Notes: generated by a model from the letters alone, not told the origin. A stretch of 64,000 nucleotides of DNA from a bacterium (GCA_030622545.1 JAUXGA010000006.1:62001-126000), one strand, 5' to 3'; shown: positions 372 to 56,098, counted from the stretch's first letter. A program made the numbers and translations.

Positions 372-872
372 AACTTTTCGCCAGACGATGTGTGGGCAAG
401 CGAAGCAAAGCAGCACATAGTGGGCACGGACGGTTTTCTCGAAACGCACAAGGATTTTGCGGAAGCGGTTCAGCCAACTATGACAGACTTCCACGACCCA
501 GCGGCGGGGAACATAGTCCGGATCATGTTTTTTGAGTCAGCGCTGGTGATGTTGGGTCTGGATACAGGGCTGATAGCCGTTGGCAATCATCAGATACCAT
601 GCGTCGTAGCCGATATATCCGGCGTCGGCCCACTCCAGGAAGCGGCGATGAATCGTGGACGACGATCCGAACTGGCTGGGGACAGCGTTCCACTGGCAAC
701 CGGTTCGCAGAACATAAAAGATCCCGGACAGAATCAATCGATCGTCAGCGCGCTTGCGTCCTCCTCCCGGCTTGCGGAGATAGGCCTTGTGAGGGTCGCG
801 TCGCGGGGGCGGAATCAACCGTTCGGCCTGCGCCCAAAACTCGTCCGACAATACCCAAGACTTTCTGGCCAC
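360..872 (-). pseudogene. IS5-family transposase pseudogene
   Basis: Read on the minus strand, the N-terminal part (from a GTG at 872, or an ATG at 917) matches the IS5 transposase start: ARKSWVLSDEFW, then RKPGGGRKR, then GIFYVLRTGCQWNAVP and STIHRRFLEWADAGYI. It then jumps to a GYDAWYLM..NGYQP segment that in intact proteins lies far downstream, so the catalytic middle is deleted. A TGA at 537-539 breaks the frame. The same frame continues with the typical C-terminus (RRWVVEVCHSWLNRFRKIL, then CFACPHIVWRK) and ends at 360-362. The protein cannot be an active transposase, although the ends could still be mobilised in trans. Confidence 0.8.
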
Positions 873-935
873 ACACCCTCCATAATGATGTGTGGCCACT
901 AAGATACGAAAATCCACTCCTCCCTGTCAAGAACC

Positions 936-975: not shown

Positions 976-2055
976 TTACTCATACCATGAAACAACCAAC
1001 GGATTTTCAGAACCCTCTTGCTGAAGAACGGTAAGAGCCCTCTCAATCGCTTCACGACCGAAGTAAATTTCGCTCTTATTTTTCTTGCCTTTCCAAGTGC
1101 TTGAGGCTTGCGTAAGAAGTGTAACTCCTCCGATAATTTTATTTTCAATTGTCTTGATTTTATCTACGATAAGGATTCCTCTAAATCGTCCTTCTTTAAG
1201 CTTTTCCATTTGAGCATTAGTTTGAGAGTTGTGAACCACGAGAATTCCCCAGCTTTCCCTAAAGTCAATGTTATTCCACTTTCCCCCCGAAGGAAGTTCC
1301 ACGTAAGTGAGAGCTTGCAACGGCCATGTTAAGTTTGCCGGATCAGTGACATACTGGCTTCCGTCAACGCCGCTCTGCGCGATCTCCTTCAATCGTCCCT
1401 CCGGGAAACCCGCCTCTTCTCCACCAAAAACCTTATCAGGTGTATCAGGAAATCCGTTTGGCCATACAGCCTCTTCTTCGACGATACATGAAGTATAGTG
1501 TTCTTCCGGCTCATGATCCTCTTCCCCGCATGTTCCACCGATTTTCGATTTCTTCTTTGCCTCGAATGTCTCGATGGTACTTACCGCCAAGGTGCCGGTT
1601 TCCGCAATGAAACCTCCTTCCATATCATGATTTCGCCCATCAATGATAAGGTCTTTTTCCACAGTAAGCTTGCATTGCGCAACAACAGCGGCTCGCATAT
1701 CAAAAGATAGGCTGCTTGCTGAAAGATTGACAATCGCTTCCACGACAGCCGTGTCTTTTCCCGGCACATAACCTCGAGCGATAATCTTAATACGATTTTC
1801 GGTGAGAGCAAACGTATCCAAGGAAACCCGCGTCGAAAAAAGCGGCACATTCGATACTTCCTGCAGCTCCTCGCCGCGAGCAAGTGCACCGATGGCCATA
1901 TTCGCCACGCTGATGGCATTGCTTCGAGCACAGGTGCGATCATGTTGATCCACACAGCGACCAATGAACGCAACACTCACGCGATTCATTGCAAGCAATG
2001 TGATTCCCCCAATGAGGATCACACCTGCAACGAGAATGGTGACAATCTTGCCCAC
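976..2055 (-). CDS. Membrane-anchored minor pilin-like protein, last gene of the pilus operon
   Basis: The protein has 359 residues with one N-terminal membrane helix (about residues 4-23, MGKIVTILVAGVILIGG) and a long extracytoplasmic region. The layout recalls PilX/GspK-like minor pilins, but the canonical GFTLIE signal is absent and I recognise no family domain. Residues 175-200 are acidic and contain two cysteines that could form a disulfide. It is the twelfth and last gene of the operon, 46 bp after the preceding pilin-like gene. An IS5-type remnant starts only 18 bp past its stop, so anything once downstream may have been lost. The minor-pilin role is inferred from topology and context. 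Confidence 0.6.
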   Translation of the reverse strand: MGKIVTILVAGVILIGGITLLAMNRVSVAFIGRCVDQHDRTCARSNAISVANMAIGALARGEELQEVSNVPLFSTRVSLDTFALTENRIKIIARGYVPGKDTAVVEAIVNLSASSLSFDMRAAVVAQCKLTVEKDLIIDGRNHDMEGGFIAETGTLAVSTIETFEAKKKSKIGGTCGEEDHEPEEHYTSCIVEEEAVWPNGFPDTPDKVFGGEEAGFPEGRLKEIAQSGVDGSQYVTDPANLTWPLQALTYVELPSGGKWNNIDFRESWGILVVHNSQTNAQMEKLKEGRFRGILIVDKIKTIENKIIGGVTLLTQASSTWKGKKNKSEIYFGREAIERALTVLQQEGSENPLVVSWYE

Positions 2056-2101
2056 ACTGTTCCTTTAATCGAAAACTTAGAAATTGACAACAATATGGCT
2101 C

Positions 2102-2656
2102 TTAAAGTCCCAAAGAGACCGGGGAGATTTTTGCATGACGGATAGAGCGGTTATATGTTTCGCCTATGGGATCCGTCGCTTCGACCTCCAGCGAGATTTC
2201 GATGGTGCGAATCGTATCCACCGCTATCGTTTCGTTCCCTCGAAAATCAAAGCCAGTCAATTCGAATCCCACGACACCTAACGCGATTCCCTGCTTTGGG
2301 GCGTTATTGATGCTTCGGTACAGAAAACGATCTCGCGGATTCGATGTTTGTGCTGGAGCCGTCGTATCCGAAAGGCTGTATTCGATTTTATCAATCGAAC
2401 CGTCGTCTCCCAAATCGGCGAGAAATGTAATATGGGTCGAATCGAATACTTTAATAGGCTCTTCACCCGTCACACGATGCCCGATTTTTGAGAAATCATT
2501 TTGCATGACTGCGATGAGTTCATCGGCGGCGCGCTGAGAAACATATCCCGATGAAAGCTCGTGGTGGCTTCGGGAAAGATTCAGATTCAGTCCCAAAATA
2601 TTCAACATCAAGAGACCGCCGATGATGAACGCGCCTTGCGTATCGAGCAGACTCAT
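2102..2656 (-). CDS. Minor pilin-like protein (PilW/GspJ-like)
   Basis: The protein has 184 residues with one N-terminal hydrophobic helix (about residues 8-26) followed by a mostly beta periplasmic domain. Size, topology and position next to the pilus ATPase fit a minor pseudopilin of the GspJ/PilW type. The segment with F-L-Y-R-S and the later E-L-T-G-F-D-F resembles the J-type pattern in which a comparison of values is followed by a beta strand. The leader lacks the usual Gly-Phe/Met-Thr-Leu-(Ile/Val)-Glu. It starts 6 bp after the upstream pilin-like gene, so the two are co-transcribed. Confidence 0.6.
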   Translation of the reverse strand: MSLLDTQGAFIIGGLLMLNILGLNLNLSRSHHELSSGYVSQRAADELIAVMQNDFSKIGHRVTGEEPIKVFDSTHITFLADLGDDGSIDKIEYSLSDTTAPAQTSNPRDRFLYRSINNAPKQGIALGVVGFELTGFDFRGNETIAVDTIRTIEISLEVEATDPIGETYNRSIRHAKISPVSLGL

Positions 2657-2662
2657 AAAGCC

Positions 2663-3151
2663 TCAGTAATAAGTAAACAGATGATTGAGTGTGACGGAAT
2701 AATCCAGATAGTCACTGCTAATTGTCACGGCAAATCGCTTCATAAAGGTGCGATAATTGACATTCGAAATGCCGCTCTGCAAATTGCCATCTGAGTAGTT
2801 AACCGTTATCCTCGCCTGAAAATCAGCTCCGCTTTCCTGCCATGATTTGTCAAGACCATTGAAATCGTCAATATCATCGAAGACAGGATAGATTTCCAAA
2901 CTCTCCACTCCCAGTGAATCCGGCGCCGTCAGCTCACTCGGAGATGAGACAGAACCCGAGACGCATGCTTTATCAAAAGCACGGGTTCGTGCTTCCTCGA
3001 TAAACCGTTCGGCATGCAGCATCGCTCGCGGCAGGATTTCACTTTCGACCATCGTTCTTTGGTGACGATGAATCCCGCGGTAGATTCCCAATGTCGCGAT
3101 CCCGAACAGAATCGTGGCTCCGATAACCAGCAGCATTTGGCCGTGACTCAT
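2663..3151 (-). CDS. Minor pilin-like protein
   Basis: The protein has 162 residues. The N-terminus MSHGQMLLVIGATILFG gives a very short leader and a single membrane helix (about 5-22), then a soluble region with one cysteine. The start resembles that of the major pilin-like protein of this operon (MGQQQLLLL) more than classical prepilins: a glycine precedes a Gln and then aliphatic residues, with no Glu at mature position 5. It lies 24 bp downstream of the ATPase gene. A minor pilin role is inferred from size, topology and operon context. Confidence 0.6.
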   Translation of the reverse strand: MSHGQMLLVIGATILFGIATLGIYRGIHRHQRTMVESEILPRAMLHAERFIEEARTRAFDKACVSGSVSSPSELTAPDSLGVESLEIYPVFDDIDDFNGLDKSWQESGADFQARITVNYSDGNLQSGISNVNYRTFMKRFAVTISSDYLDYSVTLNHLFTYY

Positions 3152-3175
3152 ACCTTCTCCCTTCGCGCAAGCGAA

Positions 3176-4876
3176 TCAGAAATTCCGCGTGCACCGCTGA
3201 ATTTCTTCAAGCGTCGTCACCCCATCCAGCGCTTTTTTCAACCCATCTATTCTCATCGTCTGAAAATGTTGACGCTTTGCGATTTGGCGAATTTTTTCCG
3301 GTGTAGAATCAATGAAAATCTGCTCGCGAATTTCATCCGTGACGACAAGCAGCTCGTGAATGGCGGTTCGCCCCCGACACCCTTCACCTTGGCACGCTTT
3401 GCACCCCTTTCCATGGAAGAAAACGAATGAGCTGTCCGGAGATAAACCGAAATCACGCAGGATTTCCGGTTTCGGCTGATGCTCCTCGATGCACTCCGGA
3501 CAGATGCGGCGCACGAGTCTCTGTGCCAAAACGCCAATTAAAGACGGCCCCACCCACACGGGGGGAATGCCCATGTTCACCAAACGCGGTATCGCTCCGA
3601 TGGCATCATTCGTATGAAGCGTACTCAGAACAAGGTGGCCGGTCAGTGCCGCTTCCGCCGCCACTCGACCCGTTTCCACATCGCGGATTTCTCCTACCAA
3701 AATAATATCCGGATCCTGACGCAAAATCGCTCGCAGCGCGTTAGCAAACGTGATTTCCCTGTCCGCATTCACCTGAATCTGATTAATCGATTCCTGGCGA
3801 TATTCGACGGGATTCTCGATGGTGACGATATTGACATCTTCCCGGTTCAGCTCTTTGAGAGCGGCGTAAAGCGTCGTTGTTTTCCCGCAGCCCGTCGGGC
3901 CGGTCACGAGAATGATGCCGTTCGGCTGGGCAATGAGTTTTTCGAAAATGGTCAGGTTCTCTTGCGAAAATCCCAACTCTCGCAGATGCAGGGACGTATC
4001 CTCCATGCGCAGGATACGCATCACGACTTTCTCTCCATTGATTGTCGGAATCGTGCTTGTTCGAATATCGAATTCAAGATCGCCCATCGTCAAACCAATG
4101 CGACCATCCTGCATGACGTTTCGTTCAAACATATCCATGCCGCTGCGATTCTTGACGACAGCCACGAGCGGCGCGGCAAGTTCCCGCGAGAAGCGAGCCA
4201 TCTCATGCAGCACTCCATCCAACCGATAGCGAACTCGAAAATAATCCTCCATGGGTTCGAGATGAATATCACTGGCTTTCTTTTTGATGGCTTTCCAGAA
4301 AAGAATTTCCGATAATTCGAAAAGGCTGGGCACTCTTTCCCGCAGTTGCTTCGGATTTAAACCTGCACTCTCCTTAAGTAAGGATTCCGCCTCGGAGACA
4401 TTAATGCGATTTTCGATTTCCGCGAAGGGAGTCTGCGAAAGCTCTCGACTCTTCACGGCATCCTGAAAATCCGTAAGCGTCGTCACCACGGGAACGATGG
4501 CGCGCCCAAGTTTGTCTTCGAGAGTTTTGAGTAGCGCCTCGTACGGCGGCCCGACGATAGCGACGGTGAGTTCTTCACCAATTTCGAAAACCGGCAAGAG
4601 ATGGAGCCGACGGCTCAGTTCCGCAGGTAAAACACCCGAGGGAGCCGTCGTGATTTCTTCGGTGATATCCATTCGCGGAATGACGAATGTCTCCGCGATG
4701 ACGTCTGCAAGGTCATCCTCGCGTATGAGGTTATGCGAGAGAAGATGGCCTGCCAGAGATGTCTCAAACTGCCGGGGATCGAGCTGCTCAGAGGCACGCT
4801 CGAGCTGCGCTGTGCTGACCAGCTTTCTTTCTGAAAGGGCTGCGGCAAGTATTTTGTCTTCCGAAACAAGGCTCAT
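3176..4876 (-). CDS. Type IV pilus/type II secretion assembly ATPase (PilB/GspE family)
   Basis: This is the hexameric cytoplasmic motor that powers pilin assembly. In order, the 566-residue protein shows an N-terminal GspE/MshEN domain (about 1-150), an N2 domain containing KKKASDIHLEP (198-208), Walker A GPTGCGKTTT (326-335), an Asp box TIENPVEY (352-359), Walker B DPDIILVGEIRD (388-399) and a His box HLVLSTLHTND (414-424). A tetracysteine zinc module follows (C459, C462, C492, C495). All catalytic motifs are intact and the length is normal. The start overlaps the stop of the zinc-ribbon gene by 4 bp (ATGA), which implies translational coupling. No retraction ATPase (PilT) is in the window. 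Confidence 0.93.
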   Translation of the reverse strand: MSLVSEDKILAAALSERKLVSTAQLERASEQLDPRQFETSLAGHLLSHNLIREDDLADVIAETFVIPRMDITEEITTAPSGVLPAELSRRLHLLPVFEIGEELTVAIVGPPYEALLKTLEDKLGRAIVPVVTTLTDFQDAVKSRELSQTPFAEIENRINVSEAESLLKESAGLNPKQLRERVPSLFELSEILFWKAIKKKASDIHLEPMEDYFRVRYRLDGVLHEMARFSRELAAPLVAVVKNRSGMDMFERNVMQDGRIGLTMGDLEFDIRTSTIPTINGEKVVMRILRMEDTSLHLRELGFSQENLTIFEKLIAQPNGIILVTGPTGCGKTTTLYAALKELNREDVNIVTIENPVEYRQESINQIQVNADREITFANALRAILRQDPDIILVGEIRDVETGRVAAEAALTGHLVLSTLHTNDAIGAIPRLVNMGIPPVWVGPSLIGVLAQRLVRRICPECIEEHQPKPEILRDFGLSPDSSFVFFHGKGCKACQGEGCRGRTAIHELLVVTDEIREQIFIDSTPEKIRQIAKRQHFQTMRIDGLKKALDGVTTLEEIQRCTRNF

Positions 4877-5229
4877 TTGGACTCCTTGCCGAAAAGTTTA
4901 TCCAAATCTTCCTGCTCGAGACTCTGCCGGGAACCGGCGACGTCGACTGTCTGACGACGGCGTTGATTGATTTTTTCCAATTGAGAAAGTTCTTCCGTTG
5001 AGAGAGAAGACGCGGACTCGTGCACGACGGGAGTAGCTTCTGTTTTTAGCGGTGTTGCATCTCGAGATTCGTTGCTGACAAGTTTTGTTCCGCACCCCCC
5101 GCAGAAAAGCGTTTCCGTTTCATTCGCGAAACCGCACTGCGAACAAAAGGCCACGATTGGGCGGCCGCAATTTTTACAATAATGTCGCTGCGGGAAGTTC
5201 GGAGTCCCGCAGTGCTTGCAGGAATTCAT
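4873..5229 (-). CDS. Double zinc-ribbon protein with FliM-like C-terminal peptide
   Basis: The protein has 118 residues. The N-terminal half holds eight cysteines in four CxxC pairs (C4/C7, C18/C21, C29/C32, C43/C46), i.e. two zinc ribbons. The C-terminal half is charged and probably disordered. It contains two peptides that resemble the CheY-binding N-terminus of FliM (pattern L-S-Q-x-E-I-D-x-L-L): LSTEELSQL at 76-84 and LEQEDLDKLF at 104-113. The gene overlaps both the CheY-like regulator upstream and the ATPase downstream by 4 bp each. An adaptor role between regulator and motor is my inference; the family itself I do not recognise. Confidence 0.75.
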   Translation of the reverse strand: MNSCKHCGTPNFPQRHYCKNCGRPIVAFCSQCGFANETETLFCGGCGTKLVSNESRDATPLKTEATPVVHESASSLSTEELSQLEKINQRRRQTVDVAGSRQSLEQEDLDKLFGKESK

Positions 5230-5621
5230 GACCGCGCTTCCTCATGCAGTTGCCAGCCGAGTTCCGACAGTACGTCGGAGATTTTCTCGCGCGTGAACGG
5301 CTTCAGGATGTAATGATCAGCTCCGATTTCCTTGACCTGCAGAATCTTCTCTGTATTGGCAAGAGAACTCAGAACAATCACTCGAGTATCCGCATTTTGT
5401 TCGCGAATCTTTGTCAGGACTTCGGTGCCGTTCATTCGCGGCATGATTTGATCAAGAAAAATGAGATTCGGCGATTCTTCCTTGAAAAGACGCCATCCTT
5501 CCTCGCCATCCGACGCTTCCATAATATCCGAAAATCCCAGTTTCTTAAGCGTCGTGCGCACTAAAAGCCGAACATGCATCGAATCCTCGATAAGGAGAAC
5601 TTTGGTTTCATGGGGTAACAT
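5226..5621 (-). CDS. CheY-like single-domain response regulator
   Basis: A stand-alone receiver domain of about 131 residues with no output domain. Numbered from the ATG at 5621, the acidic pocket is E12/D13, the phosphoacceptor is D57 (LIFLDQIMPRMNG), the switch Ser is S85 and the conserved Lys is K107 (ILKPF). All receiver residues are intact. An earlier ATG at 5642 is possible. I prefer 5621 because the receiver fold begins right after it and the overlap with the upstream kinase gene is smaller. It probably takes phosphate from that kinase and works by protein-protein contact; the next gene encodes a candidate partner. Confidence 0.88.
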   Translation of the reverse strand: MLPHETKVLLIEDSMHVRLLVRTTLKKLGFSDIMEASDGEEGWRLFKEESPNLIFLDQIMPRMNGTEVLTKIREQNADTRVIVLSSLANTEKILQVKEIGADHYILKPFTREKISDVLSELGWQLHEEARS

Positions 5622-6885
5622 AAGCCGCCTGCAGTGTTTCACTTTCTTCGTTTAACTCTTGAACAACCGATGGAAGGATTATCGTAAACGTCGATCCTTT
5701 TCCCATCTGACTTGTGACGTGAATCTTTCCTTGATGCTGTTCCACAATCTGTTTAGCGATGGCGAGTCCTAATCCCGTGGAGGACTCTCCTGCGGTTGGT
5801 TTAGCATATCCTTTGTGAAATTTCTGAAAGATTTTCTGAATTTCATCTTCGGGAACACCCTGACCTGTGTCTTGAACGGCAATTCGGAGGAAGCCGTCCT
5901 CTTTGCTGACATGTACAACGACGCTGCTGTCGGAGTGCGAGAATTTCGCCGCATTAGTCAGAAGATTCTCTAAGACCTGCGCAATCCTCTTTCTGTCAAA
6001 CACCCAGCTTTCCGGAGCCTCGTTCAAATTCAGTTGATAGTGGATTCTTTTTTGATTGAAAAGCAAATTCATCTGTGCGATGAGAGGTTCCAAGAACCGG
6101 CGCAGTTCAACATCCGCAGGATGAATTTCCACCCGACCATTCTCGATACTGGACAAATCAAGCAACTCGCTGAGCATCGTTAAAACTTCAGAAACAAGCG
6201 TCTTTGTATTTAAAAGAAAGCTCTTCGGCTCTTCGGCCAAATCTTTCAATTCCTCAATTAAGTAATCCGTGTACATCTCTACGGCGCTGACCGGATTGCG
6301 CAAATCATGTGCAACAATACCGACCATCTCATCTTTCAGATTGCTCAACTCCTCCAACTGCTGATTCTTTTGCTGAAGCTCCTGCGCGAGATCCCCGACT
6401 TGTTTGAACGCTCCCTTGTAGCTTATGGCGGCGACGGAGAGATTCTCATTCTTTTCTTTCAGTTCGCGGTGCAGCGTTGCCAATCGCACACCCGTCCGGA
6501 TGTTCGACAGAAATGTAAGACGATGATAGGGCAGAGTGATAAAATCATCAATTCCTGCTTTGAACGCCGCCGAAATCTCTTCCCATTGCGTTGAGGATGT
6601 CAGAAGCAAAGAGAACAACGTCTGTTCGGGAAACTCGTGGCGAAGCTTCAGGAAGGATTCGATCTCAGTAAGCGTATATGCCGGCTCGTAAAGAAGCAAA
6701 ACATCCACCGGAACATCTTTGAGAATCCTTCGGACGCCTCTCTCCGTTCTGCAGCAAATTACTCGCGAACCGGTGGGAGCGACATCTCGTCGGATTTGAT
6801 CCACCGCATCCGTTTTATCACCCACATAAAGAATCACCGCACGCTCAGACGGCCAACCTAATGATATAAAATCATCTTTTTCCAT
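5608..6885 (-). CDS. Sensor histidine kinase with degenerate receiver-like N-terminus
   Basis: The protein has 425 residues and no membrane segment. Residues 15-130 fold-match a receiver domain, but the strand that should end in the phosphoacceptor Asp reads VDVLLLYEPAY, with Tyr66/Glu67 at that place, so it is unlikely to be phosphorylated. A coiled coil (about 140-185) leads to the HisKA box IVAHDLRNPVSAV (H193). The HATPase domain has the N box (N307, N311), G1 DTGQG (339-343) and G2 GLGLAIAK (371-378). It sits between the secretin and the CheY-like regulator in the pilus operon. It would act as a cytoplasmic kinase for that regulator. Confidence 0.88.
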   Translation of the reverse strand: MEKDDFISLGWPSERAVILYVGDKTDAVDQIRRDVAPTGSRVICCRTERGVRRILKDVPVDVLLLYEPAYTLTEIESFLKLRHEFPEQTLFSLLLTSSTQWEEISAAFKAGIDDFITLPYHRLTFLSNIRTGVRLATLHRELKEKNENLSVAAISYKGAFKQVGDLAQELQQKNQQLEELSNLKDEMVGIVAHDLRNPVSAVEMYTDYLIEELKDLAEEPKSFLLNTKTLVSEVLTMLSELLDLSSIENGRVEIHPADVELRRFLEPLIAQMNLLFNQKRIHYQLNLNEAPESWVFDRKRIAQVLENLLTNAAKFSHSDSSVVVHVSKEDGFLRIAVQDTGQGVPEDEIQKIFQKFHKGYAKPTAGESSTGLGLAIAKQIVEQHQGKIHVTSQMGKGSTFTIILPSVVQELNEESETLQAAYVTP

Positions 6886-6913
6886 TTGAATCCTGTCGTC
6901 TTAAAAACGATTA

Positions 6914-8098
6914 TTACTTGAAGCGATCCTGCATTTGTTCAAAGGCTTTTCGCCGCGATTCTTCGAGCTGGATTCGCTTCGAGAATCGTGTGGACGCGTC
7001 CTCGACGAGATGAGCGCGCATCAGAATCACAAGTTCTCTCGTGTCTCTTTCGTCGCGACTGTAACCGAAGAGATAACGCAATCCGAGAACCCACCACGGC
7101 AAGTCCTTGACATAGGGAATTCCTTTTCGCACAGATGTTATTTTCGTAACGTAGAGACCTCCTATCACCGTCTGTTCTCCATCGTACAGCAACACTTCGG
7201 TTTCTGCCTGAGTTTTATTCACCGTTGTGGAAACCGGATTAGGAATAACGGTGGAGCGTTCGGCGTGGATATCCAGATGAATGTAAGGACGCTCCTCTCC
7301 GAAAACAATGATGGGAGTTACTTCGAGGATTGTTCCCGCCGAATAGAATTCCTCGATGGTGTTTCCGGCATAGTCGCGACTCTTGATTGAGAAATCCTGT
7401 CCAACCTGAATGCGTCCCTTTTTGCGATTCGCCACGATCACTTCAGGCCGGGCGATGATTTGGCCTTTGTCGTGAGACTCGAGTGTCCGCATCAACGCTT
7501 CCACTTCTATCTCAGTTCCCCCCCTCGTGCCGCTTCCTCCTGTAGAAACCGAGAAAATGGAACTGGTGAGTTCGTCCGCGGCGCTACCATCAGCTTGAAC
7601 GAAGAGTTTTCCATCAACAAGGCTTGACCAGTTGATGCCGAATTCCCGGAGTGTCTTGCGGTCTCCTTCAAAGAAAACCGCTTCGATTTTCACTTCGCGT
7701 GTTTCGGCTGTGACACGCGTCGGATCCTCCGCACCCGACGGAATAAAAAGCGGCTTCCCATCGCGTCCTAATTTGGGACGAAAGACAAAGTAACTCTCGG
7801 CGGTTTCCAAATACCACAATTGATTGCGCGCCAGCAGAATTTCCAGAGCATCTCTCCAATGACGATGGAAAATATCGACTCCAATCGGCTGTTCGCGGTT
7901 TGAGGGATCAAAAATCGTTTTGCCTGTCGCCGCCATCGCGACACCGGAGAGAATCTCCAGCGCTTCCCTCACCGGCAGTTCCGCACTGAGGGTTACTATC
8001 TGTTCTGCGGGGATGTAACTCCGCGGAGGTTTATCCGCCGCCCACAGCGCTCCCACTCCTGCCGCAAGGAGAAATCCTATGATCCATGTACGTTTCAT
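6914..8098 (-). CDS. Short secretin (PilQ/GspD family)
   Basis: This is the outer-membrane channel of the pilus/secretion machine. I chose the ATG at 8098, which overlaps the previous stop as ATGA, giving 394 residues; an ATG at 8113 is also open. A signal peptide (MKRTWIIGFLLAAGVGALWA) is followed by an STN/N0-like region (about 25-100, LSAELPVREALEIL) and then directly by the C-terminal secretin domain (about 130-375). That domain includes the conserved segments GQIIARPEV, VGQDF and TVIGGLY. Typical PilQ/GspD proteins have 600-770 residues with several N1-N3 modules; these are missing. The C-terminus ends in a basic, coiled-coil-like tail. Confidence 0.88.
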   Translation of the reverse strand: MKRTWIIGFLLAAGVGALWAADKPPRSYIPAEQIVTLSAELPVREALEILSGVAMAATGKTIFDPSNREQPIGVDIFHRHWRDALEILLARNQLWYLETAESYFVFRPKLGRDGKPLFIPSGAEDPTRVTAETREVKIEAVFFEGDRKTLREFGINWSSLVDGKLFVQADGSAADELTSSIFSVSTGGSGTRGGTEIEVEALMRTLESHDKGQIIARPEVIVANRKKGRIQVGQDFSIKSRDYAGNTIEEFYSAGTILEVTPIIVFGEERPYIHLDIHAERSTVIPNPVSTTVNKTQAETEVLLYDGEQTVIGGLYVTKITSVRKGIPYVKDLPWWVLGLRYLFGYSRDERDTRELVILMRAHLVEDASTRFSKRIQLEESRRKAFEQMQDRFK

Positions 8099-9033
8099 TG
8101 TCTCGTTCCCCACATGCCGACTTCGCTCACGCGAAAGACGAATTTCTCACCGTCACCTATCGGTGTAATCTCCATCATACCGCTCTCTAAATCAACCCGC
8201 GTCACTTCTCCCTCGAAGACCTGATCCCCTTGGTGTAAAGCCACAAGTTCTCCTGCTGAATCGCGCACGTAAGCGATATCACCGGAAATCGCCACCAGCG
8301 ACGCATTCGGCAGAATCCTCGGCAAATTCTCGCGCGTTAGCTCTTCAGAACCGTCCTCCATCGCGCCGAGTTGTCTCAACTCAGCTATGAGAATCCGCGG
8401 AGGAGAAAACAAGGCATACACGGGTTCTATGTTCTTGAATTCTGCTGAGGGATGCAAATCGTCCTGCAAACCGTCCTGATAAGAGTAACCGCTGAGCTCC
8501 AACGTGAAGTTTATCTTTTCTTTCCACACACCTATCAGATATTTTTGTTGAATAAAATCCTCTCTCTCTTCGAGATGAAGACGATGAATGCGGTAGTAGA
8601 GCACTCCTCGTTCAATGCCGCAGACAAATTTATAAACATCCGCAAACGAACCCGTCCCTTCAAGCTTGTACCGGTTTTCTGTCACCGGTCCGTGCTGAAT
8701 ATCCTTCTCCGTTCGAAATCGGTAATTCAATCCGAGGGAAAGGTTCCGGGATAACTCATCAAAATAAGCATAACTGATATCCGGCGATTCTACAGCCGGA
8801 AAAACAACCGTCGCAGATGCTGTGGCGTTTTCGTCTGAATCTTGCTCACTGGTCGTCTTATTCAATTCCAAAAGCGTAAGCGACAGCACTTCTCGACGCT
8901 TCTCAAGATTCTGAACCTTCTGGCGCAATGTTGTCAGCGAGGATTCTTTTCCCGCCGTCAGCGCGAATCCCAGACTCAGCACCAGCGCGCAAATAACGAC
9001 AAGAATGATATTATTGAATGCAAACGTTTTCAA
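8095..9033 (-). CDS. PilO-PilP-like inner-membrane alignment protein (apparent fusion)
   Basis: The protein has 312 residues with a single N-terminal membrane helix (about 9-27) and a coiled coil (about 32-62). Residues 75-190 resemble PilO/GspM, including a G-x-F-x-D-V-Y-K-F-V segment at 131-140. The C-terminal part (about 210-310) resembles PilP/GspC homology regions, ending in a beta-rich repeat with G-D-Q-V-F-E-G-E-V-T-R-V and I-x-P-I-G-D-G-E. In most pilus systems PilO and PilP are separate proteins that align the inner-membrane platform with the secretin. The gene lies 2 bp from the PilM-N fusion and overlaps the secretin by 4 bp. The fusion assignment rests on pattern and context. Confidence 0.65.
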   Translation of the reverse strand: MKTFAFNNIILVVICALVLSLGFALTAGKESSLTTLRQKVQNLEKRREVLSLTLLELNKTTSEQDSDENATASATVVFPAVESPDISYAYFDELSRNLSLGLNYRFRTEKDIQHGPVTENRYKLEGTGSFADVYKFVCGIERGVLYYRIHRLHLEEREDFIQQKYLIGVWKEKINFTLELSGYSYQDGLQDDLHPSAEFKNIEPVYALFSPPRILIAELRQLGAMEDGSEELTRENLPRILPNASLVAISGDIAYVRDSAGELVALHQGDQVFEGEVTRVDLESGMMEITPIGDGEKFVFRVSEVGMWGTRQ

Positions 9034-9035
9034 AC

Positions 9036-10511
9036 TTATTTATCACTGCTTAAAGGAATTGTCAACGCAAACGAATAAACAGTTCGCCGCCCGAGCTCTT
9101 GCGTTGCTACAGACATCAACCGGGCTCCGCTTAGTATTCTCGCAATGTCATCCACGCGTTCGCGCCTGAGTGCCACACCGGAAACCGTCATGTCACTATA
9201 AGACCAGTCTAAATCCGTCAGCCAGAAATTTCCGATCTTTCGACCTCGCATACACAGCGTGTCCAGCACCGGTTCGAGCGGTTTCGTTGTCGAGAGCAGC
9301 GAATCGAGCGTCTTGTTCTGCGTGACTGCTTCGCGAGGCTGCGCCCGATAGCTGTTCTGTTCCATCATCTGGCTTCGTGTCATTTCCTGAAGCTTGACAA
9401 TTTGAGTTGTGAGCACGCTGAATTCTCGCGATTGCCGCAGATACTTTGCCGTGGAAACACCGCCCATGAGCAGCGCAAATAACACGAGAGCAATCCCGGC
9501 GATACTGAGCTCAAGAAGCACTCGACTGCGCCCTGCAGAATCCTTGAGCTTCGGAACAGGATAGAATCTCGGATCTCCACGGGACAGAGCCTTCGCCGCT
9601 AACGTGACCGGAATGACAAACGCTTCCTTAGAATCCGTCGAGGCAATCTTGTCATCCCACGAAAATATCGAAAGAGCTTTCACTCTCGCGCTCGGAAATT
9701 CCTTTTTTAGAAAGAGCTCAATCAGCGCTTTTTCCCACGTACCTGACAGCAGAAATGTGCTTGTTTCCCGGAACGCACTTTCGCCAAGCAGCGGTTCATG
9801 GACAGCCTCCTCCCATGAACCCGGCGGCAGAGTTATCCAGATATGAAGATTCCTACCCTTCAGTTGAACAAGATGACTGCCATTACCGTCGCGATGGAGA
9901 AGCGTGACGATGTCATCTGTTTCCGGATGCGAGTACAGCGCAATCGCATCCAATAGACAGACACGGGGGTCTTCCCTGAGCCGAATCGGAAGCCGATTTT
10001 CGCCTGCGAGATTCGCGGCTTCCTGAAAAAGCTCCTGCAACGGAGAAACTTCCGAAAAAAACAGAACCCAATCGTTCTCGCTCTCACCTGAAAAAACCCG
10101 CGGCGTTTCCTTCCCTGTAAGCTCGATTCCCCGCTGCCTTGCCCACGAAAACCATTCGTCTTTCCTTTTCGGTTGCTCGCTGCTCGGAAACGCGATGAAC
10201 TCCGATGGCGACGTATCTGATGCAAGCGCAAAAACGTCATCACTTCTTCCATAGCGTTCGAGCAAGTCGAGCGACACCTGAATATTCGACTGCCCGCTTG
10301 AAGACGTCTGCCCCGCTTTTAGAAGAGAATCAATGCCGAAAGGATCCTCTGCAGCCGCTAACGGGGCAGCCGGATTTGCACTCAGAGGTTCATTTAAAAT
10401 CCGCGTATCCGCCGCTTCTACCCGAAAGTTCCCCTGCTCGCGGCGCACAACCGCGAAACGCAGGGTTTGTCCTTCTAAATAGATTCCGATAGCGCGTTTC
10501 GTCTTCGGCAA
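9036..10511 (-). CDS. PilM-PilN-like fusion protein (GspL-like architecture)
   Basis: The protein has 491 residues. The first 320 residues are soluble and begin with an actin-like strand pattern (AIGIYLEGQTLRFAVVRR) as in PilM and the cytoplasmic domain of GspL. A single membrane helix follows (about 332-352), then a coiled coil (355-385) and a C-terminal PilN-like periplasmic domain (WLTDLDWSYSDMTVSGVAL at about 428-446). PilM and PilN are usually two genes, and GspL of type II systems has the fused layout seen here. It lies between PilC/GspF and the PilO-P fusion. The role is assembly-platform scaffolding. Homology is weak but topology and position agree. Confidence 0.7.
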   Translation of the reverse strand: MPKTKRAIGIYLEGQTLRFAVVRREQGNFRVEAADTRILNEPLSANPAAPLAAAEDPFGIDSLLKAGQTSSSGQSNIQVSLDLLERYGRSDDVFALASDTSPSEFIAFPSSEQPKRKDEWFSWARQRGIELTGKETPRVFSGESENDWVLFFSEVSPLQELFQEAANLAGENRLPIRLREDPRVCLLDAIALYSHPETDDIVTLLHRDGNGSHLVQLKGRNLHIWITLPPGSWEEAVHEPLLGESAFRETSTFLLSGTWEKALIELFLKKEFPSARVKALSIFSWDDKIASTDSKEAFVIPVTLAAKALSRGDPRFYPVPKLKDSAGRSRVLLELSIAGIALVLFALLMGGVSTAKYLRQSREFSVLTTQIVKLQEMTRSQMMEQNSYRAQPREAVTQNKTLDSLLSTTKPLEPVLDTLCMRGRKIGNFWLTDLDWSYSDMTVSGVALRRERVDDIARILSGARLMSVATQELGRRTVYSFALTIPLSSDK

Positions 10512-10556
10512 GTTGACACCCTTCTAAATTATTTACGTCAGCGCCCCTGAATGAAC

Positions 10557-11918
10557 TCAGGGCGCTGAAACGGCTCTCGTCTCATTAACACCGGGCATAT
10601 TCGGTTGAATCACGGCTGTTTCACTGGAAATAATCGTCAGCGCCGTCATCACAACCGTAATCAAAACTGCAACGCTGACTTGAATCCAGTCAATCACAGC
10701 CCTCATCCGATAGCTCGAATCTTTCTCGTAGTAGTTGGCGATTTGCAGACTCGACTTTCTCAACGTCCCGGAGGCTTCACCCGCGCGAAACCGTGCGAGC
10801 ACGTTCTGATTAAAAACACCCGATTTCTCAAGCGCCTCCACAAATCCCAGTCCGTGTTTCTCAATCAGCGGAATCGAACGAGATTTGATTCGCTCTTCCA
10901 GATAACGATTCTGGCACGCTTCCGAAGCAATGCGAATCGCTTCTATGTTCCCCGCCGCACCTCGATACAGCGCGTGAAACATACGGCACCAGATTTCAAT
11001 TGACGCCTTTTCAAAAAGCGGTCCAAGAATGGGCAAACGCAAGAGCCATCGGTCGCGCGCCAACTGTCCCTTTGTCGTTAAAAAAAATCGACCACTTCCG
11101 ATGATGCCTATCGCTCCCAAAGCGAGAAAGAGCAGAAGATAATCTCCGATAAACCTTGAGAGCGCGAGTGTTGTGTTCGTCATCGGCGGCAAGGGAATGT
11201 CGAAACGCTCATACATCGCTGCGAATTCGGGAAAGATATAACCCACGTAGAAAACAACGGCTCCGAAAAGTACCACCAGAGTAATCGTCGGCATCAATAG
11301 AGCTGACTTCATGCTCTTTCGAAACGCCTGCTTCCGTTCGATAAACTTGGCTGCGCTTTCGAAAACTTCTGGCAAGTTATCCGATGTCGAAGCGATGGCG
11401 AACATCTGCGCGGGGAAGCGCCCCAACACGTCCGGATGTTTTCCGAAGACCTCGCGTCCGCTCTTTCCTTCGCGAAGATCATGAACGATTTCTTCCAACG
11501 CTCCCCTTAAGCGAGGATGTTTCACCTCGCTCTGCAGAAGCTCAACCGCTTCATCAAGGGGAATTTTCTCGCGTAAAAGATCCGCGCAGAGCCGGACAAA
11601 TAACACGACTTCTTCGGTCGGAGGCCGATGACGAACAGGCAGCCATCGCCGCATTACCCGAAAGTGCGTGTAGCCCCGATGACGCAGATACTCCTCCACC
11701 TGAGCCCTATCGGTAGCTGATCGTTCACCCTCGATAGGCAGGCTTTTATCCCGCCACGCCCGATAGAGAAAAACCGACTCCTTCGGTGAGAGATGAAGTG
11801 TGTTCCTGCGAGTTTGCTGATTGGCTTCCTGCACCGCTCGCCGTAAACGGGAAACAAGTGATACTCTCCGGGGGCGTTTGGGATTCGGAGCTAACTTCCT
11901 CTGTTGAACATCAGACAT
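10557..11918 (-). CDS. Pilus assembly inner-membrane platform protein (PilC/GspF family)
   Basis: The protein has 453 residues. The N-terminal 95 residues are basic and atypical for the family. Two T2SF domains follow, each with four-helix-bundle signatures: the first around FVRLCADLLREKIPLDEAV and SGREVFGKHPDVLGRFPA, the second around ARFRAGEASGTLRKS. Three membrane segments lie near residues 205-230, 258-275 and 408-432, as expected for GspF. The protein docks on the ATPase and on PilM-P-like proteins in the inner membrane. The gene follows the pilin-like gene by 13 bp. Confidence 0.92.
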   Translation of the reverse strand: MSDVQQRKLAPNPKRPRRVSLVSRLRRAVQEANQQTRRNTLHLSPKESVFLYRAWRDKSLPIEGERSATDRAQVEEYLRHRGYTHFRVMRRWLPVRHRPPTEEVVLFVRLCADLLREKIPLDEAVELLQSEVKHPRLRGALEEIVHDLREGKSGREVFGKHPDVLGRFPAQMFAIASTSDNLPEVFESAAKFIERKQAFRKSMKSALLMPTITLVVLFGAVVFYVGYIFPEFAAMYERFDIPLPPMTNTTLALSRFIGDYLLLFLALGAIGIIGSGRFFLTTKGQLARDRWLLRLPILGPLFEKASIEIWCRMFHALYRGAAGNIEAIRIASEACQNRYLEERIKSRSIPLIEKHGLGFVEALEKSGVFNQNVLARFRAGEASGTLRKSSLQIANYYEKDSSYRMRAVIDWIQVSVAVLITVVMTALTIISSETAVIQPNMPGVNETRAVSAP

Positions 11919-11931
11919 GTAGACAGCGGAA

Positions 11932-12327
11932 TCAGTATTTCACTTCAGTCTGAATGTCATCCGGTGTCACCGTGCAAACCACTTCGATCGGTTGGCCGCT
12001 CGACTTCTTGGCGAGTCCGCAATCACCGGTGATTTCGACTGTTGCCGAGTCGATAACACTCAAACTGATTTGCGTGCCGATAGGACTGTCTTTTCCTCCG
12101 GTCAAGTAATCCAGAGTGAGACCCGTGAATTTCTGATCTCCTCCTCCCATACTCGTCGGTTTGAGATAATACTGATGAGCGACACTCCCCAATTCAACCA
12201 CCTCGTTCACCACCATATCGATGTTGGATTTTTCGGCGTTTTTGTTAAAAATACCAATACCAACAACGATGGACGTGCCGACGATAATGACGGCGAGGAC
12301 CAGTAGAAGAAGCTGTTGCTGACCCAT
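11932..12327 (-). CDS. Putative major pilin-like subunit with atypical leader
   Basis: The protein has 131 residues. It starts MGQQQLLLLVLAVIIVG, a hydrophobic helix beginning at residue 5, followed by a charged spine (NKNAEKSNIDMVVNEV) and a small globular domain with two cysteines about 20 residues apart that could form a disulfide loop. Being the first gene of the pilus operon, short, and built as one helix plus a head domain, it fits the major pilin. However, the usual G-(F/M)-T-L-(I/V)-E processing site and the Glu at mature position 5 are absent. A good ribosome binding site (AGAAAGGA) lies 7 bp upstream of the ATG. Confidence 0.65.
   Translation of the reverse strand: MGQQQLLLLVLAVIIVGTSIVVGIGIFNKNAEKSNIDMVVNEVVELGSVAHQYYLKPTSMGGGDQKFTGLTLDYLTGGKDSPIGTQISLSVIDSATVEITGDCGLAKKSSGQPIEVVCTVTPDDIQTEVKY

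Positions 12328-56023: not shown

Positions 56024-56098
<75 letters not shown>

Follow-up and report, generated by a model that had tools for sequence, protein, structure and literature searches.

The prepilin peptidase is counted among the four core proteins of type IV filament (T4F) machines (PMC10191384), and a survey recorded it in 1656 pilin-bearing species and in all phyla listed except Nanoarchaeota, with bacterial prepilin leaders of 6 to 26 residues (PMC4471445). Among described relatives of these machines, the type II secretion system (T2SS) carries PulL/GspL, a PilM-N fusion (PMC10191384), and the so-called T2SS of Bacteroidetes, which has a role in cellulose use, falls on a branch separate from the true T2SS (PMC5553014, PMC6668835). 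Here, we describe a minus-strand operon at positions 976-12327 of a 64,000-nucleotide stretch of bacterial DNA (GCA_030622545.1 JAUXGA010000006.1:62001-126000, hereafter the window), whose twelve proteins are referred to as W1 to W12. It quite likely encodes a T4F machine from a lineage that no longer processes its prepilins.

A filament family of the FCB group

The window operon is one member of a T4F family that is large, apparently undescribed, and distributed across the Fibrobacteres-Chlorobi-Bacteroidetes (FCB) group. A profile scan of genome contigs with the PilC alignment returned 294 PilC relatives, and the record titles of the best 80 of these loci name Ignavibacteria, Chlorobi, Kryptonia, Calditrichota, KSB1, LCP-89, Latescibacterota, Coatesbacteria, Gemmatimonadetes, Balneolia, and others. 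Of 297 genomes sampled from the phylum to which one Ignavibacterial carrier belongs, 101 have a strong PilC match. Searches with PilMN and the secretin recovered orthologous operons in several families of the window's phylum and in one genome outside it, and found none in the 12 other genomes of the window's own order. The window genome shares its phylum with an LCP-89 genome (contig NJBN01000007), and LCP-89 is assigned to the FCB group by NCBI.

The usual family operon reads pilin(s), PilC, PilB, W10, W11, W12, sometimes an immunoglobulin (Ig)-domain protein, PilT, PilMN, PilOP, and secretin. The exact order PilC-PilB-PilT-PilMN-PilOP-secretin is kept in 34 of 52 informative loci, most of the remaining 18 running off the sequence or losing genes to the open reading frame (ORF) filter. 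PilT is present in 51 of the 52, in most family operons between the minor pilins and PilMN, and PilM and PilN are fused in every one. With the same gene set recurring in dozens of genomes, the synteny lies far beyond chance. The family PilC proteins, that of the window included, group in a single clade (support 100/100), which a very long branch separates from the other PilC/GspF proteins tested; the family PilB proteins likewise form a clade of their own (99/99), with the window PilB outside it. Relatives encode the Ig-domain (Big_1/Invasin_D3) protein, possibly an adhesin, between W12 and PilT (L035:2592-4340, L036:2598-4319, and L042:2026-3753); it is absent from the window.

The PilC and family PilB clades bear out the original prediction that these genes represent a distinct lineage of T4F machines, although its reasons were only partly right. 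Relatives retain the fusions rather than separate PilM, PilN, PilO, and PilP, as seen for PilM-N across the informative loci. Nevertheless, the PilM-N fusion is not unusual, and fusions are ruled out as a defining novelty, since PulL/GspL and system A, one of two further T4F systems in the window genome, also join PilM to PilN. Nor is the short secretin unique: that of system A (410 aa) and the HofQ model (length 412) are of similar size. As for the signalling genes thought to be embedded in the operon, the receiver and zinc ribbon are conserved with the PilB clade described below, but conservation with the pilus genes does not extend to the kinase.

The assembly ATPase, platform protein, and secretin match PF00437, PF00482, and PF00263 far above cut-off, as expected of the T4F superfamily. 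The family resembles the type IVa pilus (T4aP) in its PilB, PilC, homologues of PilM, PilN, PilO, and PilP, secretin, pilin-like predicted fold and, in most members, PilT. It differs in its leaderless pilins without Glu5, in the lack of a prepilin peptidase beside the operon and often anywhere in the genome, in the fusion of PilMN and PilOP, which are separate proteins in T4aP, and in the very long separate PilC branch. The cut-offs of curated T4aP models are not reached (PilB, 509 bits versus a cut-off of 676; PilC, 135 versus 700; PilQ, 86 versus 284), nor is that of the MshL secretin model of the mannose-sensitive haemagglutinin pilus (60 versus 250 bits).

Some features recall a secretion system with a short pseudopilus, that is, a T2SS-like output rather than a surface pilus: PilM and PilN are fused as in PulL/GspL (PMC10191384), the window locus, like a T2SS, has no PilT, and the Bacteroidetes system introduced above, likewise from the FCB group, serves cellulose use and has a branch of its own. 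We consider such an output rather doubtful, because PilT is present in nearly all family loci whereas T2SSs are devoid of it, and because the GspD, GspE, and GspF models fall far short of their cut-offs (86 versus 351, 495 versus 630, and 144 versus 424 bits, respectively). The pilins also differ from T2SS pseudopilins, which are of the processed type. The Bacteroidetes system (Cytophaga CHU_3191-3202), compared by description only, also shares divergence from the Proteobacterial T2SS and a PilN/M/O/P-like scaffold with the present family, but has an A24 peptidase gene in its locus and another gene order (PMC5553014).

Leaderless pilins and the missing peptidase

The strongest novelty, overlooked in the original prediction, lies in the leaderless pilin starts and the carriers without a peptidase. 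Family pilins begin with MG[QSTN]QQ[LIM]L, lack Glu5, and continue without interruption as a hydrophobic helix, a typical start being MGQQQLLLIVLxVIIVG. For 86 of 89 pilins, the frame is closed by a stop no more than 30 codons upstream (mostly 1 to 6), and the intervening codons offer no possible start. A further 16 regions, several of them on multi-megabase contigs, contain 19 MGQQQ starts, each with an in-frame stop within 13 codons upstream. The major pilin-like subunit of the window, W1 (11932-12327; 131 aa, beginning MGQQQLLLLVLAVIIVG), which was assigned from the family alignment and a structural model, is preceded by an in-frame stop at a distance of 8 codons and offers no alternative start. 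The minor pilin-like proteins W10, W11, and W12 have such stops 8, 2, and 3 codons upstream, respectively. With the MG-plus-helix start and stops just upstream, we found no class III signal peptide with a cleavable leader.

W1 is predicted to adopt a type IV pilin-like fold: its AlphaFold2 model (predicted local distance difference test score 90) contains a helix spanning residues 3-55 and a four-stranded sheet. Searches of Pfam and NCBIfam yielded no named family for W1; weak ComP_DUS matches were obtained for 14 of 38 members of the pilin family (best E 4e-4).

The prepilin peptidase profile PF01478 found no match in 22 of 32 whole genomes behind the named loci and, among 15 genomes from the earlier family searches, was absent only from G092; overall, the peptidase was undetectable in 23 of the 38 carriers scored. 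A search of the peptidase-less carriers at E<=10 returned few, weak matches and no credible peptidase. Four of these matches were readable, and from their sequences we take them to be FeoB, an ACR3-type transporter, a CDP-alcohol phosphatidyltransferase fusion, and Lgt. Poor sensitivity is thus an unlikely cause of the absence. The peptidase is present in 11 of 12 carriers with canonical PF07963 pilins versus 4 of 26 without them (Fisher p 1.2e-5, n = 38, a value that is indicative only, as the carrier genomes are related to one another); hence, it tracks canonical pilins and not the leaderless system. In 13 peptidase-less carriers (G092, G099-G102, G108, G110, G116, G117, G119, G127, G129, and G130), only two T2SSE ATPases exceed the cut-off, one of PilB type and one of PilT type, and one of these carriers, G099, is a single-contig chromosome of 4.06 Mb (CP070707.1).

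The family thus probably assembles ready-made pilins without a prepilin peptidase; we infer filament formation, the absence of cleavage, the removal of Met, and the order of signalling discussed below. The pilins would be translated in a nearly mature form, Met-Gly-Gln-Gln-Gln followed by the hydrophobic helix, with the N-terminal helix driving membrane insertion. At most, the initiator Met would be lost through methionine aminopeptidase, which is possible because Gly at position 2 permits it, and the Gln triplet may supply the contacts made elsewhere by Glu5. PilC and PilB would then polymerise the pilins through the PilMN/PilOP scaffold and the short secretin, W10 to W12 probably priming or tipping the filament.

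Several observations weigh against this proposal. Most carriers are metagenome-assembled genomes (MAGs), in which single absences may be assembly gaps, and one carrier (G107, Coatesbacteria, locus L070) has seven canonical N_methyl pilins and no peptidase match, reflecting either a MAG gap or a divergent peptidase. The best match of the W1 model in the PDB, Pseudomonas aeruginosa PilA (Foldseek, probability 0.95), has a weak E value of 0.2. On the signalling side, the kinase lies outside the conserved gene cassette, and only the analogy with FliM suggests that the CheY-like protein binds the zinc-ribbon tail. Finally, the window genome encodes PilD, so that cleavage after Gly2 would be possible there. 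Indeed, an ordinary T4F machine might use an ultra-short leader of two residues (MG), cleaved by PilD where present or else by an unrelated, unrecognised peptidase; in the pilin and in W10, a Gly precedes the helix, like the -1 position of canonical prepilins. We judge such a leader unlikely, considering that it would be shorter than the published bacterial leaders (PMC4471445), that the A24 peptidase is missing from most carriers scored, the single-contig chromosome among them, and that the peptidase follows the canonical pilins.

An independent account of Melioribacter roseus also speaks for the assembly of leaderless pilins: pilBCTQ were reported, pilA and pilD were not found, and the organism was judged probably unable to make pili (PMC3534657). 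This is how a leaderless pilin combined with a lack of peptidase is expected to look under standard annotation, and, if the proposal is true, leaderless assembly explains that judgement; the sequence searched here is a MAG labelled M. roseus (L144/G102) and not the isolate genome. A widespread machine that skips the peptidase would, if real, reveal the purpose of processing and provide a peptidase-free model, and detection schemes that need a known major-pilin profile may miss leaderless systems. In the open-access literature we found no account of leaderless pilins or of the MGQQQLL string, although a description may exist elsewhere.

A receiver, zinc-ribbon, and PilB cassette

Downstream of the kinase, the window operon encodes a CheY-like single-domain response regulator (W7, 5226-5642; PF00072, E 1.8e-27), a double zinc ribbon ending in a QEDLDKLF peptide (W8, 4873-5229; 118 aa; PF12773 DZR), and a PilB/GspE assembly ATPase with an MshEN domain (W9, 3176-4876; 566 aa; PF00437, E 1.4e-121; MshEN, E 4e-9). 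The PilB tree rules out W9 as a family PilB and groups it (100/100) with the PilB proteins of zinc-ribbon cassettes, of which there are nine including that of the window: two each in G126, G104, and G322 and one each in G114 and G243. The order zinc ribbon-PilB is found in all nine copies, with the genes close or overlapping and the receiver usually just upstream; for the G243 copy, a receiver immediately upstream could not be confirmed. In the cassette alignment, the receivers retain both the phospho-acceptor Asp and the Lys, and a C-terminal motif is present in all nine zinc-ribbon proteins (e.g., VSQKDIDKLF, LSQQEIDSLF, LTQEEIEKLF, LEQEDLDKLF), the window tail, with the pattern QxDLDKLF, being FliM-like. 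The motif of the nine tails resembles the CheY-binding peptide of FliM, LSQxEIDALL. As in the flagellar switch, a single-domain CheY-like regulator would thus stand beside a protein with an LSQxEIDxLF-like peptide and be coupled to a motor, but here the peptide forms the C-terminal end of a zinc-ribbon protein and a PilB ATPase takes the place of the flagellar motor, so that the analogy is one of working principle only. The kinase as a cassette member is not supported. In one region (L162:2678-3442), a 254-aa pilin-like protein starting MLMGQQQQILIVLG is encoded beside two such cassettes, with no PilC nearby in the region read.

The kinase, receiver, and zinc-ribbon genes could be chance neighbours without a role in the filament, as the core family has no zinc ribbon at the window's position and strong cassette-type zinc-ribbon matches occur in only 3 of the 297 sampled genomes. 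This appears quite improbable in light of the zinc ribbon-PilB order repeated in nine copies, the conserved tail motif, the shared PilB clade, and the other signalling genes carried within the operons of other family members. The latter comprise receiver fusions to cyclic nucleotide monophosphate (cNMP)-binding domains, cNMP-binding proteins, or, behind the secretin, a receiver with a large kinase. Between PilB and later pilus genes, relatives encode receiver-cNMP fusions or cNMP-binding proteins standing alone (L044:15540-16403, L034:16625-17128, and L041:1698-2174), which suggests second-messenger control, and five Ignavibacterium-type loci (L120, L131, L142, L148, and L149) have a CheY-like gene and a kinase of ~900 aa downstream of the secretin. 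Lineage-specific cytoplasmic control thus emerges from these varied signalling genes as a recurring theme.

We propose that the ancestral PilB in the window genome was replaced by the receiver/zinc-ribbon/PilB cassette, that the CheY-like protein most likely receives its phosphate from the neighbouring kinase, and that it would then bind the FliM-like C-terminal peptide of the zinc-ribbon adaptor, switching PilB. If this is true, the cassette represents a direct phospho-signal input to a pilus motor; we found no open-access account of a PilB with a zinc ribbon and CheY, although one may have been given elsewhere. Collectively, it seems fairly likely that a major T4F class, common in the FCB group, assembles leaderless pilins peptidase-free, so that peptidase processing is not universally required in the superfamily, and that in some of its lineages a CheY-like protein switches the ATPase via a zinc-ribbon adaptor.

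The window operon and its genomic surroundings

All twelve minus-strand ORFs of the original prediction were recovered. Its domain calls for PilC, secretin, kinase, receiver, zinc ribbon, and PilB are matched by profiles, and the absence of PilT and of a prepilin peptidase from the locus was confirmed. Its spacings hold for the most part, with gaps mostly of 2-46 bp and 4-bp overlaps between receiver and zinc ribbon and between zinc ribbon and PilB, but two overlaps are larger: 19 bp between PilOP and secretin and, depending on the start codon, 14-35 bp between kinase and receiver. Single-sequence profiles give the pilin-like, PilM-N, and PilO-P labels little or no support, and these labels are backed by profile-profile comparison and predicted structures. 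The PilM-N and PilO-P calls hold by hhalign and, for PilOP, an AlphaFold2 model, which matches P. aeruginosa PilO (2rjz, E 3e-4) and PilP (2y4y, probability 1.00, E 0.08); a PDB sequence search with PilMN and PilOP gave no match.

Besides the proteins placed above, the operon encodes the PilC/GspF platform protein W2 (10557-11918; 453 aa; PF00482, E 1.7e-31; 38-46% identity to family PilC), the PilM-N (GspL-like) fusion W3 (9036-10511; 491 aa; hhalign against the PilMN of system A, E 5e-10 over 303 columns), the PilO-P fusion W4 (8095-9033; 312 aa; hhalign, PilP E 6e-9, PilO E 9e-6), and the short secretin W5 (6914-8113; 399 aa; PF00263, E 2e-28; 33-42% identity to family secretins). The histidine kinase W6 (5608-6885; 425 aa; HisKA and HATPase_c) looks cytosolic, and weak receiver similarity at residues 75-126 suggests that its N-terminus possibly carries a degenerate receiver. 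The minor pilin-like W10 (2663-3151; 162 aa; helix starting within 5 residues of the N-terminus), W11 (2102-2656; 184 aa; 35-38% identity), and W12 (976-2055; 359 aa; start MGKIVTILVAGV; up to 38% identity) all have family orthologues.

Following W1, the gene order is PilC, PilMN, PilOP, secretin, kinase, receiver, zinc ribbon, PilB, and W10-W12; compared with the family, the locus is a rearranged variant without PilT and with a different PilB. An ORF (537-917, minus strand) that follows W12 closely and adjoins the operon's 3' end resembles, on reading its sequence, an IS5-type transposase; it may be a trace of the rearrangement by which PilT and the Ig-like gene were lost. A location of these two genes beyond this element, to the left of the operon, was ruled out, the next genes being unrelated to pili.

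The window genome (2.66 Mb in 20 contigs) contains PilT-like genes in its two further T4F systems, A and B, and retraction of the window machine, if any, would need the PilT of another system. System A (contig C18) is T4aP-like, with PilB, PilT, PilC, a PilSR-like pair, a canonical pilin, a PilM-N fusion of 571 aa (L019:9094-10809), separate PilO and PilP, and its short secretin. System B (contig C1) has separate PilM, PilN, PilO, and PilP and the only prepilin peptidase detected in the genome. Both systems adjoin genes for large secreted proteins that end in a sorting domain of the YPNPFNPTT type (L016:132-2135 for B and L019:14171-16900 for A). The window's only tRNA, and its only Rfam match above the gathering score, is a tRNA-Pro (TGG) at 56024-56098 on the minus strand.

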